A stretch of DNA of 64,000 bases from NCBI RefSeq assembly GCF_000379465.1, contig NZ_KB905403.1:181-64180 (forward strand), written 5' to 3'. Below, in pieces: positions 1-14,420 of the stretch (within the stretch, counting starts at the first letter, position 1; each line of letters begins with the position of its first letter). The notes below the pieces were generated by a model. It did no database searches. It was not told the DNA's origin and saw only the letters and a program-made list of their open reading frames with translations. Source of the stretch: Sciscionella marina DSM 45152 (lineage in GTDB: Bacteria; Actinomycetota; Actinomycetes; Mycobacteriales; Pseudonocardiaceae). A program made the translations under genes and the position numbers.

Positions 1-384
1 AGCGCCCAGCTCGCCCTCGACGCCCTGGAATCCGCCGTCGCCCGACGCGGCGGCACCGTCGCCGAGTGCACGCTGCACAGCGACCGAGGAGGTCAATTTC
101 GCTCGCGCAAGCCGCAACAATCGCTGTGGCGCCACCAGATTCGCGGCTCGATGGGCCAGGTCGGCTCAGCCGGTGACAACGCGGCCATGGAGAGCTTCTT
201 CAGCCTCCTGCAACGCAACGTTCTCGACCGCCGTAAGTGGACCAGCCGCCAGGAACTCCGGACCGCGATCGTGACCTGGATCGAGCGCACCTACCACCGG
301 CGACGCAGACAAACCCGACTCAGCCGCCTGACCCCCATCGAATACGAAACCATCATGACCCAAACCGCCCCAACCACGGCCTAA
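1..384 (+). CDS. IS3-family transposase, C-terminal part (cut by window edge)
   Basis: This is the end of an rve-type DDE transposase/integrase that begins left of the window; the frame is open from base 1. The visible part holds the HSDRGGQF block around the second catalytic Asp, a GDNAAMESFF stretch carrying the expected Glu, and the usual basic C-terminal tail ending near TPIEYE. This matches the OrfB subunit of IS3-group elements, which catalyses strand transfer. The 3' end looks intact, and only about 75 bp separate its stop from the next gene. Whether the left part is intact, and where the IS terminal repeats lie, cannot be seen here. Confidence 0.85.
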   Translation, partial: SAQLALDALESAVARRGGTVAECTLHSDRGGQFRSRKPQQSLWRHQIRGSMGQVGSAGDNAAMESFFSLLQRNVLDRRKWTSRQELRTAIVTWIERTYHRRRRQTRLSRLTPIEYETIMTQTAPTTA

Positions 385-461
385 ACAACTGTCACAGAAA
401 CGTTCAGCAGCCCCGTCGGGATTGTCGGACGATGCGTGCTGCTCGCAGTGTCAGGCTTGCT

Positions 462-1367
462 CTATTTCGAGTCGAGTTTGCCCAGCGGTTCGGCGGTCGC
501 CGCCAGGGCCGCCCGGAACTCGGGCCACGCACCGTCTTCGAGGCCCAGCGCGGTGCGCAGATATGCCAGCGTGGCGCGTTGCACGAGCGCGACGCGTTCG
601 GGGTTTTCGTCGGTGGTGCGCGTGTCGTGGGCGCCCTGGATGCCGCCGAGCCCGTGTTCGGCACCGAAAAGGGTCAGCAGATCGGTGGCCCCCGGGGCGA
701 GGCGGAAGCCGTCGGTGAACCAGTCCGGGCCGCGCACCGTCAGTGGGGACTGGTCGGCGTCACCGGCGACGATCAGACTGGAGGTCTTCATCTCGGCGAA
801 CTCAGGACTCATGAATGGGAAGTACTCGGCCGCCATCGGGCTCAGGTCGGGGCCGCCGGTACCAGGCAGACATAGCAGCACCGCAACCCTGACCCGAGGG
901 TCGGCCATGCTCTCGCCGGGCGTGCCGTCGGCGTCGATGACCCGCGCACCCACGAGCGTGCTCGCAGTCTGCGCGCCCCACGAGTGGCCGGCGGCCGCGA
1001 TACGGTCGCGGTCGATGCGCCCGGCCAGTCCGGGCACCTTGGTTTCGATGACGTCGAGCTGGTCGATGATCCGGGTCAGGTCGGCGGTGCGGATGCGCCA
1101 GACGCGCGGGGTGCGCGGGTCGTCGGGGGTGAGCCCGAGCGAATCGAGGTGAGTGGGCTGAATGACAACGAACCCACGAGCGGCCCAGTACCCGGCCAGC
1201 GGCACGTAGTCGTCCATGCCCAGGGTCATGCCGTGCGAGAATACGATGACCGGCAGGTCACGGCCCGTCGCGGGTGCGGTGACGCGCACCTGCAAGTCCT
1301 GCCCGCGATCAGGGGCCGCGAGCGAGACCGGCCTGACCGAGATGACGGGAATCGTTGTGTCGTTCAT
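462..1367 (-). CDS. alpha/beta-hydrolase (esterase / dienelactone hydrolase-like)
   Basis: This is a 301-aa serine hydrolase without a signal peptide. The nucleophile elbow is GHSWG at residues 127-131 (Ser129), the oxyanion segment is FSHG near residue 43, and a late AEHGLGG segment is the likely source of the catalytic His. The fold resembles PAF-acetylhydrolase or chlorophyllase-like esterases, so an ester or lipase-type substrate is likely but unidentified. I chose the ATG at 1367 because GGAAGG lies upstream and the frame above it has no family similarity. It is divergent from the TetR gene at 1512, which is the obvious candidate regulator through the inverted repeat between them. Confidence 0.8.
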   Translation of the reverse strand: MNDTTIPVISVRPVSLAAPDRGQDLQVRVTAPATGRDLPVIVFSHGMTLGMDDYVPLAGYWAARGFVVIQPTHLDSLGLTPDDPRTPRVWRIRTADLTRIIDQLDVIETKVPGLAGRIDRDRIAAAGHSWGAQTASTLVGARVIDADGTPGESMADPRVRVAVLLCLPGTGGPDLSPMAAEYFPFMSPEFAEMKTSSLIVAGDADQSPLTVRGPDWFTDGFRLAPGATDLLTLFGAEHGLGGIQGAHDTRTTDENPERVALVQRATLAYLRTALGLEDGAWPEFRAALAATAEPLGKLDSK

Positions 1368-1441
1368 GTGATGAAGACCTTCCTGATAAAGATGTGCCAG
1401 GTCTCCGATCCGGGCCACGCGTCTGAGATCATGGACTGATC

Positions 1442-1482
1442 CGGATCGGTGTTCCACATCAGGATAGCGGAACATTGATCCG
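1442..1482. promoter_or_regulatory. Inverted repeat between esterase and TetR genes (candidate operator)
   Basis: Two 14-nt arms, 1442-1455 (CGGATCGGTGTTCC) and 1469-1482 (GGAACATTGATCCG), are complementary at 12 of 14 positions and separated by 13 bp. They lie in the 144-bp gap between divergent starts, the usual place for a TetR autoregulatory operator. The assignment rests on position and symmetry only. Confidence 0.5.
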
Positions 1483-1511
1483 ATTAACAGTGAGGAGGGA
1501 GGCACCGTCGA

Positions 1512-2087
1512 ATGACGACTGCTGACACCACGCCATCCGGCAGGCGTAAGCGCTCCGACGCGCGTCGCAACCAGCAGACACTCCTGGATGCCGCCGCTAC
1601 TGTGTTCGTCCGCGCGGGCGTCGACGCTCCGATACGGGACATCGCCGCGGAAGCGGGCGTCGGTATCGCCACCATGTACCGGCATTTTCCCACCCGCGCG
1701 GATCTGGTGGTTGCCGTCTTCCGGCACCAGGTCGACGCACTCGCGGCCACTACTGCCGCGGACGGAGAGTCTCCCGAGGACGCCCTGCGGAGCTGGGTGC
1801 ACCGCTTCGCCGACTTCCTGGTCACCAAGCACGGTCTGGCCGAGGCGCTCCATTCCGATCAGGCGGGGTTCGAGAGTCTGCACTCCGAGTTCGTCGACCG
1901 CCTCCTGCCCGTTCTCGACCGGCTCCTGAAGGCGGCGGCCGCGACCGGACATACACGCGACGACATTCGGGCCTTCGACCTGATGCTCGGCATCGGCAAC
2001 CTCTGCATAGGAGCAGACACCTTCCCCGATTACCAGGCACGCCGCATGATCGACCTGCTCCTCACCGGCCTCGCGCGAACCGACTAA
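1512..2087 (+). CDS. TetR-family transcriptional regulator
   Basis: This 191-aa regulator has a TetR N-terminal helix-turn-helix at about residues 30-62 (IRDIAAEAGVGIATMYRHF) and a divergent C-terminal ligand domain. The ATG at 1512 is preceded by a strong GAGGAGGGA ribosome-binding site. The gene is divergent from the esterase gene at 462-1367 and probably represses both. The effector is unknown, and an ester or aromatic substrate of the esterase is only a guess. Confidence 0.88.
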   Translation: MTTADTTPSGRRKRSDARRNQQTLLDAAATVFVRAGVDAPIRDIAAEAGVGIATMYRHFPTRADLVVAVFRHQVDALAATTAADGESPEDALRSWVHRFADFLVTKHGLAEALHSDQAGFESLHSEFVDRLLPVLDRLLKAAAATGHTRDDIRAFDLMLGIGNLCIGADTFPDYQARRMIDLLLTGLARTD

Positions 2088-2089
2088 AA

Positions 2090-2776
2090 TTGAAGATGTG
2101 GAACATGGCGAGCGGGCAGGCATGGTTTCACTGGGGCGGTCCCGACGATCCTGCTAACCAGACACAACAGAGTGTGACCGATGCCAAGGCTGCGGGCTTG
2201 TATCCGGGACTGGGGCAGACTTTCGCGCAGATGCTGGCAGGGCCACAGGACTCCCCGGACGGGAACGCCGCAGCCGAGGCGGCTACGCCTCCTGAGCGTG
2301 GGACCGGGGAAGTCCTGATCCGGTACCCGTGGGAACGGCATCCGCACTGGCAAGCCAGCTGGCTGGCCGACCAGGGGCCCCGCAGCGATCATTTCGAGTC
2401 CGAATACTTCTGGGAAGTCCTGCACTGGGCTCTGGCCCGCACCCCACGGGTGTTCCTCATCGAATCCGACCAAGGCAAAACGCCCCTACCCGGTAGCGAG
2501 ACCGAACACGCTGCTGATGGTTCCTGCGTGGTCGGTGAATGCCGCGTGCGCGAACACCTCGCCAACGATCACGCCGCTTCGCATCAAAACTATCTTCAAC
2601 TCACCCAAGCCATCGATGACCTCGCCGAACGCATCCACGAACTCCGCGCCGAACAACGCGAGCACACCCTGCGGTTCGACGACATCGACACCCAACTCCG
2701 CTCTCTGACCCGCACGATCGAACAACTACACCCGAACCCAGCAGAAACCCAGCGCTCCGACCAACCCGGCAGTTGA
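2090..2776 (+). CDS. Hypothetical protein with C-terminal coiled coil
   Basis: I do not recognise this protein of about 228 aa. The first part is rich in Trp and Pro (repeated HW/WAL elements). Residues of roughly 165-215 form a heptad-rich coiled coil (LTQAIDDLAERIHELRAEQR and following). It starts within 3-18 bp of the TetR stop; TTG at 2090 and ATG at 2096 or 2105 are all possible starts. The second half is visibly less GC-rich than the surrounding genes, with many Asn, Gln and Thr codons. That fits the accessory character of this end of the window. Confidence 0.6.
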   Translation: MKMWNMASGQAWFHWGGPDDPANQTQQSVTDAKAAGLYPGLGQTFAQMLAGPQDSPDGNAAAEAATPPERGTGEVLIRYPWERHPHWQASWLADQGPRSDHFESEYFWEVLHWALARTPRVFLIESDQGKTPLPGSETEHAADGSCVVGECRVREHLANDHAASHQNYLQLTQAIDDLAERIHELRAEQREHTLRFDDIDTQLRSLTRTIEQLHPNPAETQRSDQPGS

Positions 2777-2918
2777 ACCGGTCCATCTTGTCGATCTCTT
2801 CATCGAAGGGGCCTGCCGACGGAGCTGCATGCCGCGTCCGCGAAGGCCGTCATGCTCGCCGAGGTGCTGCGTCTCCTGTACGGATCACAGGTTCCGAGCG
2901 GGATTCGGGCAACGCGGG

Positions 2919-3104
2919 GTGAGTGTGGTGGCGCAGCAGTACGCATGGATCGTCGGTAGTCAGCGTGTGGTGCATCTGGCGCCACGTTCGACAGCCCGTC
3001 CGGTGACCGCGCTGTGTGGCACCACGCTCTACGTGAGCACCACCTTGAGCGGCGCGCCTCAATCTCTGCGCGTCTGCACCAGCTGTCGCCGAGCGGCGCA
3101 ATGA
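2919..3104 (+). CDS. Small Cys-containing protein (61 aa), possible zinc ribbon
   Basis: This short ORF probably starts at GTG 2919 and runs VSVVAQQYAW to CTSCRRAAQ. It has a CG pair mid-protein and a terminal CxxC (CTSC), as in small actinobacterial proteins with a half zinc ribbon. The upstream in-frame extension to 2829 is Arg/Cys-rich and looks non-coding. The ribosome-binding site is weak. No function can be given. Confidence 0.5.
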   Translation: MSVVAQQYAWIVGSQRVVHLAPRSTARPVTALCGTTLYVSTTLSGAPQSLRVCTSCRRAAQ

Positions 3105-3350
3105 CCCACGATTAAACACATCCTTCCTCAACAACGACGACGGGCACTGCCAAGCAGCCGCCGCCCACCGAGCGCCGCAAAATATCGATATATCCCCTTT
3201 TCTGGTCAAGGGAGTCTGGGATACCGCCGGATCCCCGGGAAGGCACCGTGTCCAGCACGGACGCAGTGTTGCGGGGGTTCCGTCTTAGGCGCAATCCGGA
3301 GCGGGCATCGCAGCGGCCGGACCGTTGGTACCCGAGATGCCAGGACCGTG

Positions 3351-4921
3351 TCAGCTATCCCCGGTCGTGGCGCGGTTGCTCTTGGTTTGGTCGCGGTTGA
3401 TCAGGCGTAGGCGGTTGGGGTTGAAGCGGCGGCGTCCGCCGCGTTCGGTGGCGGGGTCCAGGAGTAGGCGCGAGGTGCCAAGGGCGCGTTCGAGCATGGC
3501 GCGTCGGGTGTCGGTGTCGCCTGCGTCCCACTGGGCGACGATCTTCTCGCGGGGTAGCGCGCGGACGGGTCCGTCGGGTGCGCCGCCTTCGGCGAGGAAG
3601 CTGGTCGCGTTCGGCTTCGAGGTTGGCCAGGGACTCGGCTAGGGGTGTGTTTCCTGTGTCGAAGGCGGTGATGGTGATCTCGCGGCGCCCGAGCCGATCC
3701 GAGAGTGCCTGTTGGATGCGCTGGCATTCGGCGATCTCGGCCTTCACCGCCTCCAGCCGTTCAGCGACCTGGGCGCGCGCGACCTCCACGGCGGCTGCGT
3801 GTCGGGGATCGGAGAGCCGTGCCGCCACCTGCATGCGCAACTCAGCGTCCACCGACCGTGCGTCGGCGGCGACACCGCCACAGCCGCCGCTGGCCTTGCG
3901 GCAGTGATACTGGCGCCGCTGCTGCCCGTCGGCATAGAAACCCGACTGCGTACGCCCGGAGAGCGGGCGCTTGCACACGCCACACCGCAGCACCCCCGAC
4001 CCGGGATACACCCGACCGACCCGGGCGGCGGCCACGGCGGCGTCCGGCGAACTTCGCCTGCAACCGTTTGAACTCGTCCGGGTCCACGATCGGCTCGCCC
4101 GGCATCCGGCCCACCACCTGCCCGTTATGCACAATCAGCCCCGCATTGCGCGGCCGCAACAGCACCTGGCGCACCGCGACCGGGGTCCACGCCTTGCCCT
4201 CAGCCGTCAAGAGGCCTTCGCGGTTCCAGTCGGCGGCGATCACCGCCTGGAATACCCCCGCCAGCGCGTCCCGCGTCCCGTCCCGCAACGCCTGCCGCTC
4301 CCGGGCCACCAGCTCGGCGGGAACCTCCTCGCGTTCCTTGCGCGTGTCGCGGGTGCCGCGCTCCAGGCCGGGGAACCCGAAGCTACGGCCACCCGAGTGC
4401 GGGACTCCGCGTTCGCGCATCGTGGCGAACCGGCGCTGAATACGCCGCTGCGTGTCATCTGATGAGCGGGCCGCGTGGGCGACCTCGACCCGCAGAATGA
4501 ACCGATCGTCCGGGTCTGACAAGTCCCGTGATCCTCGGGCTGAGTAGATCCGGTAGCCCTTGTCCGCCAGATCGATCAGGCGTTCCAGGTCTCGGGGTTG
4601 GCGGAACAAGCGGTCGGTATGCCACACCACGATCCCGTCCGAGGCACCCGACTCCACCCGCTCCAGCAGCCGCTCCCAGCCTTTACGGCGGGTACCGCGC
4701 TGCCACGCCGACACCCCATCATCCAACTGGACACCCAGCATGCCGCCAACCCGGTCGATCACACGCCGGTTATCCGAATGCTGGGTCTCAACCTTCTCCC
4801 ACTCACCCGTCTCCGGAACCTGCGACAACCGACCATACGAATCCAACACCAACCGACCCGCACGGCCATCCTGCCCCTGCTGACCAGCGGTAACCTGCCC
4901 ATCGTGACCCACAACAACCAC
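3351..4921 (-). pseudogene. Large serine recombinase/integrase, two frameshifts
   Basis: This is a site-specific serine recombinase broken into three frames. The N-terminal frame (4921 to about 4030) has the resolvase domain with catalytic Ser in YGRLS and the VVWHTDRLFR block, then the recombinase domain. The middle frame (about 4030 to 3560) has the zinc ribbon (CGVC ... YHC ... CGG) and a coiled coil. The third frame encodes the conserved tail, from the REKIVAQWDAG stretch to a TGA at 3351-3353. Both shifts are in the same direction (one base gained or two lost). The GTG start at 4921 lies about 27 bp from a half-palindrome that looks like the attachment-site junction. Sequencing error at the two GC-rich shift sites cannot be excluded; if real, the recombinase is dead and the element is fixed. 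Confidence 0.8.
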
Positions 4922-4947
4922 CGTAGGTCACCAAATAAGAGTCCGCT

Positions 4948-4970
4948 AGAACCAACACAACCACGCACGA
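4948..4970. repeat. Half copy of the 42-bp palindrome; candidate recombinase att junction
   Basis: The sequence from the central AG (4948-4949) through 4970 is identical to the right half of the full palindromes elsewhere (AG then AACCAACACAAC...). Left of this point homology stops after at most one further base. The missing left arm is replaced by the short spacer leading to the serine recombinase gene. This is what one end of an element integrated by cleavage at the central dinucleotide would look like. Confidence 0.7.
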
Positions 4971-4978
4971 AGCCCGTT

Positions 4979-7207
4979 TTACGAGGTCAGCGGGGTTTCC
5001 TCGGTCTCACTGCTGGGCTCATCGGCCTGCTCGCTCGCGGGTGCCTCACGCTTCACGGAGTTGAGCAGCAGCTGCGCCACGTCGAGCACCTCGACGGATT
5101 CGGAGGCGAGCCCATCGGACTGCCGGGATGTCACCCCGTCGCTGAGCATGACCCGGCAGAACGGGCAGCCGGTCGCGATCTTCGAGGGTGCGGTGCCCAG
5201 TGCTTCGTCCACGCGCTCCACGTTGATGCGCTTGCCGATCTTCTCTTCCATCCACATGCGCGCCCCACCAGCGCCGCAGCACATCGACCGGTCACCGTGC
5301 CTGGGCATCTCGCGCAGGTTGGCTCCGGCCGCACCGGCGAGTTCGCGCGGTGCGTCGTAGACCTTGTTGTGCCGCCCCAGGTAGCAGGGGTCGTGGTAGG
5401 TGATGTCGGTGGCACTCCCGCCGACCGGCGCGATCGGCACCAGTTGCCGCTCTCGCACCAGGCGGTTGAGCAGCTGCGTGTGGTGTACGACCTCGTAGTG
5501 CCCGTCGAGCTGCGGGTACTCATTGGCCAGCGTGTTGAAGCAGTGCGCGCAGGTGACCACGATCTTGCGCTTGCCCGGCTCACGGTCCTCGAACACCGAG
5601 TTGAGCACTTCGACGTTCTGCATGGCCAGCTGCTGGAACACGAACTCGTTGCCTGCGCGCCGTGCCGGGTCTCCGGTGCAGGTTTCCTCCGGCCCGAGCA
5701 CCACGTACTTGACGTCGGCCATGTGCAGCAGTTCCGCGACCGCGCGGGTGGTCTTCTTCGCGCGGTCCTCGAAAGCGCCCGCGCAGCCGACCCAGAACAG
5801 GTACTCCGCGTCCCCGAGGTCCCCGTCGAACACGGGCACCTCGAAGTCGAGGTCCTCGGTCCACTGCAGGCGGTCCTTGGCGTTCTGTCCCCAGGGATTG
5901 CCCTTGTTCTCCAGGTTCTTGAACATCCCGTTGAGCTCGCTCGGGAAGTTCGACTCGATCATGACCTGGTAGCGGCGCATATCCACGATGTGGTCGACGT
6001 GCTCGATGTCCACCGGGCACTGCTCGACGCAGGCGCCGCAGCTGGTGCACGACCAGAGCACCTCGGGGTCGATGACGTCGCCGACGAGCGATTTCTCGGA
6101 CTCCGCGAGCGCGAGCACGTCGATGCCGGCGTGCGGGTCCTCACCGGTGAGCCCGACCTCGTCGCCGGCCATGTCCCGCTTGCCGCCCGCGAGCAGGTAA
6201 GGGGCCTTCGCGTAGGCGTGATCGCGCAGCTGTGTGATGACCAGCTTCGGGGACAGCGGCTTACCGGTATTCCATGCGGGGCATTGCGACTGGCAGCGCC
6301 CGCATTCGGTGCAGGTGGTGAAGTCGAGGAATCCCTTCCAGGAGAAGTCCTCGATCTGCCCGGCGCCGAACACGTCCTTGTCCGGGTCGGCCTCCTCGAA
6401 GTCGAGCGGTTTGCCGCCGCTCATCATCGGCTTGAGCGCGCCGAGCGCGACATCGCCGGAGTCCTCGCGCTTGAAGTAGATGTTGAAGAACGCGGAGAGC
6501 CGGTGCCACGCGACGCCCATGGTCAGGTTGCGGGAGACCACGGCGAGCCAGAGCATTCCGGAGGCAAGCTTGATCAGCGCCATCACCGAGACCAGCACCG
6601 GGCTCGGGGGCAGCACCGAGGACAGCGGCTTGGTCACGAAGCTCGACCACAGCGGCATGTCCTCGAGGCCGCTGGATTCCTTGAAGGCCTTCACGCCGAG
6701 CATGCCGAGACCTTCGATGATCACGACCGCTTCGACGAAGTAGGCGGCGCCGAAGTTGGACCCGGCGAACCGCGACTGCCGATCGGCCCGGCGCGGGTGG
6801 TTGAGCTGCCGGATCACGGCGAGCGCAACCCCGCCGACAATCGTGCCGAGCCCGAGTAGCTCGACGAGCAGGCTCCACACCGACCAAGCGCCGAGGTAGG
6901 GCCAATGCCAGGACGGAACGAACGCCTCGCCGTAGGCTTCGAAGACGAGCAGGACGCCGAGCAGGAAGCCCCACATCACCATCCAGTGCCATGGGGCGAC
7001 ATGCCGGAATTTACTCATCCGCGTGTGCGCGGCGAATTCCTTGATCAGAGTCTTCAGGCGGGGAATGAAGGGGCCGTTGCGCGTCGAGTCCGGCTGGCCG
7101 AGCCGGATGATGCGCACCATCCGCCAGGCGCCGGAAAAGAACATCGCCCACGCGACCAGGCTGATCGCCACGCCGGCAGAGCCGAGCGTGATCTGCCACG
7201 CACTCAT
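4979..7207 (-). CDS. etfD: EtfD-type membrane Fe-S oxidoreductase (ETF dehydrogenase)
   Basis: This 742-aa membrane protein has an N-terminal membrane domain (about residues 5-270, six or so helices). Two 4Fe-4S ferredoxin clusters follow, near residues 298-309 (CTECGRCQSQCP) and 386-397 (CTSCGACVEQCP). Two C-terminal cysteine-rich CCG domains end with CCGAGG and GCPFC motifs. The order and length match the mycobacterial Rv0338c/EtfD family, which passes electrons from the electron-transfer flavoprotein of acyl-CoA dehydrogenases to the respiratory chain. A TetR gene diverges from it, with a TTAC-N6-GTAA site between. It fits functionally with the acyl-CoA dehydrogenase and bkd genes at the right end. 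Confidence 0.85.
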   Translation of the reverse strand: MSAWQITLGSAGVAISLVAWAMFFSGAWRMVRIIRLGQPDSTRNGPFIPRLKTLIKEFAAHTRMSKFRHVAPWHWMVMWGFLLGVLLVFEAYGEAFVPSWHWPYLGAWSVWSLLVELLGLGTIVGGVALAVIRQLNHPRRADRQSRFAGSNFGAAYFVEAVVIIEGLGMLGVKAFKESSGLEDMPLWSSFVTKPLSSVLPPSPVLVSVMALIKLASGMLWLAVVSRNLTMGVAWHRLSAFFNIYFKREDSGDVALGALKPMMSGGKPLDFEEADPDKDVFGAGQIEDFSWKGFLDFTTCTECGRCQSQCPAWNTGKPLSPKLVITQLRDHAYAKAPYLLAGGKRDMAGDEVGLTGEDPHAGIDVLALAESEKSLVGDVIDPEVLWSCTSCGACVEQCPVDIEHVDHIVDMRRYQVMIESNFPSELNGMFKNLENKGNPWGQNAKDRLQWTEDLDFEVPVFDGDLGDAEYLFWVGCAGAFEDRAKKTTRAVAELLHMADVKYVVLGPEETCTGDPARRAGNEFVFQQLAMQNVEVLNSVFEDREPGKRKIVVTCAHCFNTLANEYPQLDGHYEVVHHTQLLNRLVRERQLVPIAPVGGSATDITYHDPCYLGRHNKVYDAPRELAGAAGANLREMPRHGDRSMCCGAGGARMWMEEKIGKRINVERVDEALGTAPSKIATGCPFCRVMLSDGVTSRQSDGLASESVEVLDVAQLLLNSVKREAPASEQADEPSSETEETPLTS

Positions 7208-7966: not shown

Positions 7967-8003
7967 GTGGTTGTGTTGGTTAGAACCCGCACAATCACTC
8001 ACG
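7962..8003. repeat. 42-bp intergenic palindrome, copy 1 (AG centre)
   Basis: The left arm is CGTGAGTGGTTGTGTTGGTT, the centre AG, and the right arm imperfect (AACCCGCACAATCACTCACG, three mismatches). It overlaps the stop codon of the upstream TetR gene and lies between two + strand genes. Confidence 0.9.
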
Positions 8004-13951: not shown

Positions 13952-14365
13952 ATGCTTCGTCGGATCGCTCGACCACTGCTTGCCTGGGTCTTCGTCAGCG
14001 GCGGAATCGACACACTGCGGCACCCGGCTGGGCGGGTCGAGCTCGCGCGCCCACTGCTGGACAAGACCATCGGCGACCGCTCGCTCCCGGTACCGACCGA
14101 CCCGGAGACGCTGGTCAAGATCGACGCGCTGGTCAAGACCGGGGCCGGGCTCGCGCTCGGATTCGGGAAATGCCCGCGGTTGGCGGCGCTGCTGCTCGCC
14201 GCGAGCCTGGTACCGACCACGCTCGCCGGTCACTCCTACTGGGAACACGATGACGAGGCCTCGCGGGCCACACATCGGATCCACTTCGACAAGAACCTGG
14301 CATTGCTCGGCGGGCTGCTCATCGCCGCTCTCGACAAGGGCGAAAACCGAAAGCGGCCTTCGTGA
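13952..14365 (+). CDS. DoxX-family membrane protein
   Basis: This 137-aa membrane protein has about four hydrophobic helices and the DoxX features: an N-terminal RIARPLLAWVFVSGG helix, a GLALGFGK segment and a final LALLGGLLIAA helix. Family members associate with redox processes and thiosulfate:quinone or thiol metabolism, but most have no assigned reaction. The stop codon TGA (14363-14365) lies inside palindrome copy 4. It is divergent from the AAA ATPase gene. Confidence 0.8.
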   Translation: MLRRIARPLLAWVFVSGGIDTLRHPAGRVELARPLLDKTIGDRSLPVPTDPETLVKIDALVKTGAGLALGFGKCPRLAALLLAASLVPTTLAGHSYWEHDDEASRATHRIHFDKNLALLGGLLIAALDKGENRKRPS

Positions 14366-14402
14366 GTGGTTGTGTTGGTTAGAACCAACACAACCACTCA
14401 CG
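14361..14402. repeat. 42-bp intergenic palindrome, copy 4 (perfect, AG centre)
   Basis: Perfect 20-nt arms, CGTGAGTGGTTGTGTTGGTT and its complement, around AG. It sits between the convergent DoxX-like and symporter genes and overlaps the DoxX stop codon. Confidence 0.95.
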
Positions 14403-14420
14403 ACCGGGCAAAACCCCAGT

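Follow-up and report, generated by a model that had tools for sequence, protein, structure and literature searches.

A split copy of a repeated host palindrome as the putative attachment site of a large serine integrase element in Sciscionella marina

Large serine integrases cut at a central 2-bp overlap, and their attachment site is often found beside the integrase gene. In Sciscionella marina DSM 45152, a serine recombinase gene lies next to one half of a palindrome that occurs repeatedly in the host DNA. Does this junction mark an attachment site, and is the palindrome the target of the integrase? The question was addressed in a stretch of 64,000 nucleotides (the window; C24:181-64180, in a draft assembly with 86 contigs). 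The comparisons below make it very probable that the window opens with the integrase-proximal end of a small integrated element, and that its bacterial attachment site (attB) was one copy of the repeated palindrome, split at CT.

A first-pass annotation of the window had the recombinase frame starting at 4921, followed after about 27 bases by homology to the host palindrome of some 42 bases, from its central AG through the right arm and on to the stop codon of etfD. These coordinates proved correct. The frame starts at 4921 on the minus strand, the spacer measures 26 bases, the homology runs from AG at 4948-4949 through 4971, and the stop codon occupies 4979-4981; T4947, one base before the AG, likewise matches the palindrome. 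The left arm, described as missing, matches at 7 of 21 positions. An arm scan of contig C4 (entire 168 kb) and of C24 up to 204 kb yielded 45 palindromes with at least 14 of 21 matching positions in both arms, all centred on AG or CT. Lone arms scoring 20 or 21 of 21 were found only twice, at the window site and at a partner site, C4:1238, where the absent arm scores 5/21. Four further lone arms reach 16/21 and look like chance matches. Because the window site and its partner alone reach 20-21 as lone arms, the half palindrome in the window exceeds chance.

At the protein level, etfD shows 99% identity to its counterpart in Sciscionella sediminilitoris SE31; a match of likewise 99% comes from a 7.4-Mb genome in this genus (G001, taken to be that of S. 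sediminilitoris). In this sister species the gap between etfD and ino1 holds a single unbroken palindrome of the same family with a CT centre (L026:12237-12282), of the sequence CGTAAAACGGGCTTCGTGAGTGGTTGCGTTGGTTCTAACCAACACAACCACTCACGAG. No integrase match at 1e-60 was obtained in G001, the best having 38% identity. A BLAST search of this empty-site interval against the S. marina genome gave a match on C4 whose first base is the C of the core. The missing half was found there, from C4:1238 onward, as CT-GACCAACACAACCACGCAC followed by ino1, whose identity was confirmed by Pfam. The full far-end sequence reads ...GGTGTCCACC-CT-GACCAACACAACCACGCACGAG. Both checks named by the first-pass annotation, one intact palindrome downstream of etfD in a relative lacking the recombinase and a matching half at the other boundary, thus came out as predicted, and its interpretation is supported overall.

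A survey of 390 Pseudonocardiaceae genomes with an integrase match threshold of 1e-60 placed the integrase subfamily in 36 genomes, at 44 places. The near end could be read at 43 of them; L190 gave no recombinase motif. Fifteen near ends, from ten genomes, are halves of GTGAGTG-N8-GGTT-CT-AACC-N8'-CACTCAC (the window, L144, L160-L166, L168, L170, L173, L174, L176 and L192). Fourteen of these were assigned by script and the window was added separately, its integrase distance being beyond the script limits, which turns the script tally of 14, 3 and 26 into 15, 3 and 25. The three ends in the middle class carry GTGAGTR, likewise at this spacing, beside a core other than CT (AT in L152 and L158, CC in L191), and the remaining 25 are without this half palindrome. 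The outer block of the CT-type ends is GTGAGTG except in the window (GTGCGTG) and L170 (ATGAGTG). With the core oriented as CT, all 15 ends have the integrase on one and the same side, and dinucleotide and spacing are constant. Nine of the 15 also yielded a far end, in every case the other, complementary half. Eight of these nine elements, from five genomes, measure 10.4 to 17.4 kb; the ninth is the window element. N8' pairs with N8 at 64 of 72 positions, perfectly so in 6/9; 20,000 random re-pairings averaged 41.9 and never exceeded 63. The relatives support three suggestions of the first-pass annotation: AG/CT as the core, the setting of orientation by that core, and a large number of possible insertion sites.

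Near-identical recombinases were found at several unrelated loci of one genome. G182 has one integrase (first 300 aa identical) at three half palindromes, and G198 has two at unrelated loci, again identical over the first 300 aa. Over 13.2 kb the two G198 copies share 99.96% identity, and their similarity ends with the outer edges of both half palindromes. As a separate observation, L172 and L173 of G198 have an identical far-half N8 despite differing near halves, as if a host half had travelled or undergone conversion. The exact palindrome is present in all ten genomes with CT-type ends and in 6 of 26 other integrase genomes (Fisher p 3e-5, relatedness ignored). An integrase tree was constructed from 37 rows, 36 from the family including the window and one (L004) from another family. 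The 14 rows then labelled as palindrome rows, together with L003, L152 and L158, form a group of 17 with support 100/98 that contains the window, and the 20 rows on the other side of the tree have no palindrome end. The palindrome label needs three changes on this tree, and none of 500 shuffles was as good, a result that near-copies favour.

Read inward from the core, the two ends of the window element are imperfect inverted repeats, equal at 22 of 40 positions (GTAGGTCACCAAATAAGAGTCCGCT facing ATAGGTCACTAAATAGGTGTCCACC). Inverted arms were found in all nine elements with both ends, with 17 to 31 of 40 positions equal as raw counts without a shuffled baseline. The phage-type attachment site (attP) of large serine integrases has arms built as inverted repeats, and the element arms match this expected build. 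They differ from the arms of the palindrome. By sequence comparison, attP and attB are both quasi-palindromic around a common 2-bp core.

The palindrome itself, GTGAGTG-N8-GGTT-NN-AACC-N8-CACTCAC, occurs in 77 of the 390 genomes with up to 479 exact copies, and a reversed control pattern gave none among the matches listed. In 42 different copies, hand-picked among the matches listed and a part of all copies, the N8 blocks pair at 288 of 336 positions, compared with at most 171 in 2000 shuffles, and the core is AG/CT in 36. Named Amycolatopsis records with the palindrome are L049, L056 and L069, and the large genus g16 is presumably Amycolatopsis. With one mismatch allowed, S. marina has 35 copies (control pattern, 1 match), all on C4 and C24, where they span C4:6.7-149.7 kb and C24:8.1-119.8 kb, lying within about 270 kb in all and including the window; a diverged copy lies at C46:319420. 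A dnaA gene (Pfam) and parS-like sites lie within the cluster, at C4:69-75 kb. The sister species likewise has 35 copies, on eight contigs that are unplaced relative to oriC. In S. marina the palindromes are thus not genome-wide. According to a rough gene call, 10 of the 13 intact copies in the window lie between predicted genes and 3 inside, so that the family consists of many, mostly extragenic palindromic copies, like repetitive extragenic palindromic (REP) sequences.

The two ends of the window element lie on different contigs. C4 and C24 each end within a copy of an IS3-type insertion sequence (IS), with an overlap of 358 identical bases. The outer repeats of the IS match between the two contigs (window 390-414, C4:1019-1043; by eye), and the genes flanking the two ends are neighbours in the sister species. 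These two observations make a direct C4-C24 join, with about 6.0 kb between the two cores, the most likely arrangement. No target duplication was seen around the IS3-type copy despite its matching inverted repeats at these positions. C54 and C56 contain the same IS and were considered as middle parts of the element, but by eye they diverge before its outer ends. C54, which starts with a cut copy of this IS, also carries genes for a lanthipeptide dehydratase and a LanC-like protein (Pfam; L187, C54:2851-7265).

Pfam places the Resolvase and Recombinase domains of the window integrase in one frame and the zinc-ribbon part in another, in the domain order of large serine integrases. All three are present in the L180 integrase. 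The L173 and L175 integrases have Resolvase and Recombinase without a zinc-ribbon hit, the Recombinase score of L173 (19.9) lying just below the cut-off of 21.1. An integrase of a relative matches 4849-4046, 4008-3598 and 3590-3402 of the window in three successive frames, and the window gene is therefore disrupted in this assembly, a point absent from the first-pass annotation; the element copy looks decayed and is probably no longer active. Free relatives, which might preserve an intact attP, were sought among phages (201 records, none covering 80% of the query; best identity among the matches listed, 35.5%), plasmids (14 records; best among those listed, 38.9%) and viral contigs (a single locus at 27% identity). 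Solved structures gave no match at 1e-3 for the L180 integrase. The eight relative elements have a G+C content of 62-66%, compared with 68-72% in their flanks. Their cargo, according to Pfam, includes FtsK/SpoIIIE (L175, L176, L182), TraG/TrwB-like (L174, L179), NUDIX (L172) and GntR proteins and DDE transposases (both L180). The window element carries a TetR regulator, a hydrolase, a 228-aa open reading frame (ORF) and the IS; no FtsK/SpoIIIE-type protein was found among the window ORFs scanned.

Several observations weigh against the proposed insertion into a palindrome. The two ends stop in a repeated IS on different contigs, which leaves their join probable and not proved, and the window integrase is spread across three frames and is not an intact gene. 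The core is followed by G at the far end (CT-G) and by A in the empty site (CT-A). Among the CT-type ends the inner block varies (GGTT in 12/15, GGCT in 2/15, TGTT in 1/15), and N8 complementarity is just 5, 5 and 6 of 8 in L172, L175 and L180. For six of the 15 near ends no far end was located: the three of G182 reach contig ends, about 38 kb each was searched in G183 and G184, and about 18.5 kb in G162. L003, which does not show the motif, lies inside the 17-row group of the tree. Sciscionella alone provided a clean empty site; the left flank of L173 aligned at 29 loci (L205-L233) in 80 genomes of its genus, with about 1.5 kb examined beyond each match, and the right flank was seen beside it in none.

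The same junctions could arise if the palindrome were a fragile cruciform hot spot, prone to breaks made by unrelated elements or rearrangements, with no part in target choice for the integrase beside it. Other elements of the subfamily do appear to lie in hairpin-forming DNA of unrelated sequence, and hairpins themselves may attract insertions, but the dinucleotide, spacing and orientation shared by all 15 CT-type ends and the inverted arms of all nine elements disfavour cruciform breakage, which we regard as very unlikely. Just as improbable is the reverse relation, with the palindromes as products of the element, either footprints of excised copies or terminal repeats spread by it. CT-type elements occur only in palindrome-holding genomes (10/10), and a palindrome with an asymmetric 2-bp core does resemble a recombinase site. 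Clean excision by a serine integrase, on the other hand, restores attB and would add no palindrome. Moreover, 61 of the 77 exact-palindrome genomes lack an integrase match at 1e-60, the element arms are unlike those of the palindrome, and both Sciscionella species hold a family palindrome at the etfD/ino1 gap.

The break of both contigs inside an IS copy might further suggest that what moved was the IS3-type element, with the serine recombinase its neighbour by chance. The half palindromes border the integrase element, however, with the IS ends sitting inside, and relatives from two further genera (g16 and g28) have the same ends around their integrase; among the three alternatives this one can nearly be dismissed.

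Insertion by the integrase into a palindrome would proceed as follows. The target attB would be one copy of the repeated, mostly intergenic host palindrome, whose two near-identical inverted half sites of about 20 bp each would be bound by the integrase. Cleavage and strand exchange would take place at the central CT, and the halves would be rejoined to an attP in which two inverted arms, each of some 25 bp, flank CT, leaving one half palindrome at either end of the element. Since the palindrome is otherwise nearly symmetric, the CT/AG core alone should set the direction of insertion if the model is right. The two halves, the empty site, the inverted arms and the same layout at unrelated loci in relatives can be read from the sequence; half-site binding and exchange at CT are the steps that they suggest.

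Eight sites outside the CT group were rebuilt from their ends, with anchors picked by eye and the L191 core counted twice. A hairpin spans the junction in L177, L178, L186, L191, L193 and L194, the L184 site lies at a hairpin base, and L201 is without a hairpin. The rebuilt sites fold at a mean of -48.7 kcal/mol, compared with -29.7 (sd 5.8) for 56 mixed pairs. This gives a lead that hairpins may be split by non-CT elements of the subfamily too, TT and CC being examples of their cores. A tentative and rather doubtful extension is that the whole subfamily might be specialised on dispersed intergenic palindromes, its groups differing in palindrome family and core (CT, CC, AT, TT) and tolerating almost any mirrored inner sequence. 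The palindrome network would then offer oriented, harmless landing pads, and symmetry or hairpin shape would perhaps be partly recognised.

Domain order, a 2-bp core, inverted attP arms and a site beside the integrase gene are shared with the phiC31, Bxb1 and A118-type integrases. Their usual attB is single, whereas here it is a near-perfect palindrome with up to hundreds of copies. REP and REPIN repeats are also short palindromes in many, mostly intergenic copies, and the present family differs from them by its fixed length, constant outer GTGAGTG and changing but self-complementary N8. Multi-targeting large serine recombinases, as described in passages of Durrant et al. (2022, PMC10083194), share with the present case one integrase at several unrelated loci with a common core, the motif being inferred from many core-sharing sites. 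The worked example there has relaxed T/A-rich targets around TT, in contrast to the specific dispersed palindrome found here. Enzymes with more complex motifs are mentioned for the supplement and could include cases like the present one; the strings palindrom and repetitive are absent from the main text. DUF4368 is described as common in the multi-targeting clade and was not listed for the integrases scanned here (the two window frames, L173, L175 and L180).

Serine recombinases occur in 19 of 144 actinomycete integrative and conjugative elements (AICEs) in the part of Ghinet et al. (2011, PMC3218068) that lists them. Some relatives of the window element share FtsK/SpoIIIE-type, NUDIX or GntR proteins with AICEs. 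The sites given there for the serine type are tRNA-Leu or protein genes, whereas here the site is a palindrome, and no replication family was hit in 20 proteins, a subset of the ORFs from seven of the eight relative elements. Dispersed extragenic REP palindromes are targets of IS according to sections of Tobes and Pareja (2006, PMC1525189). The type of target is thus shared, but the mover there is an IS transposase and here a large serine integrase, in relatives with elements of 10-17 kb. Large serine integrase elements with a dispersed, REP-like palindrome as attB appear, from these comparisons, to be a variant of a known element type. No large serine integrase with a dispersed palindromic target was found in the titles or abstract openings among the literature matches listed, a weak negative with most subscription journals outside the coverage.

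If the proposed insertion holds, the subfamily would provide a natural integrase with a short, defined, highly repeated palindromic target and hundreds of natural target variants, in which target choice, core-set orientation and half-site symmetry become directly testable. In actinomycetes that make antibiotics, it might be used as a tool for integration in multiple copies. It would also connect the movement of larger integrative elements with the dispersed palindromes of bacteria, which have been described as targets of IS.

Table. Coordinates in the window of the putative element, its attachment site and host palindromes
Feature	Position	Strand	Remarks
Putative integrated element, window part	1..4949	.	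continues left via the IS3-type copy to C4:1-1239
3' part of IS3-type transposase gene and terminal inverted repeat	1..414	+	gene 1-384, repeat 390-414 (by eye); within element
Alpha/beta hydrolase-like gene	462..1367	-	within element
TetR-family regulator gene	1512..2087	+	within element
ORF, 228 aa	2090..2776	+	without Pfam match; within element
Large serine integrase gene, disrupted	3402..4921	-	domains and three-frame match
Element-side attachment arm, putative attP right arm	4923..4947	-	imperfect inverted repeat of the C4 far-end arm
Putative crossover dinucleotide	4948..4949	.	AG on + strand, CT on - strand
Surviving right arm of split host palindrome	4950..4971	+	
etfD-like host gene	4979..7207	-	3' end flanks the site
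Intact host palindrome, example	14360..14405	.	candidate attB
Other intact palindromes	centres near 7982, 9226, 12612, 16582, 20325, 27783, 35584, 43627, 46187, 48388, 57660, 62784		

A loose flank motif like CGTTT...AGGTCAG was also observed outside the palindrome on both sides (4972-5000 and C4:1258-1283), as well as beside several other copies.

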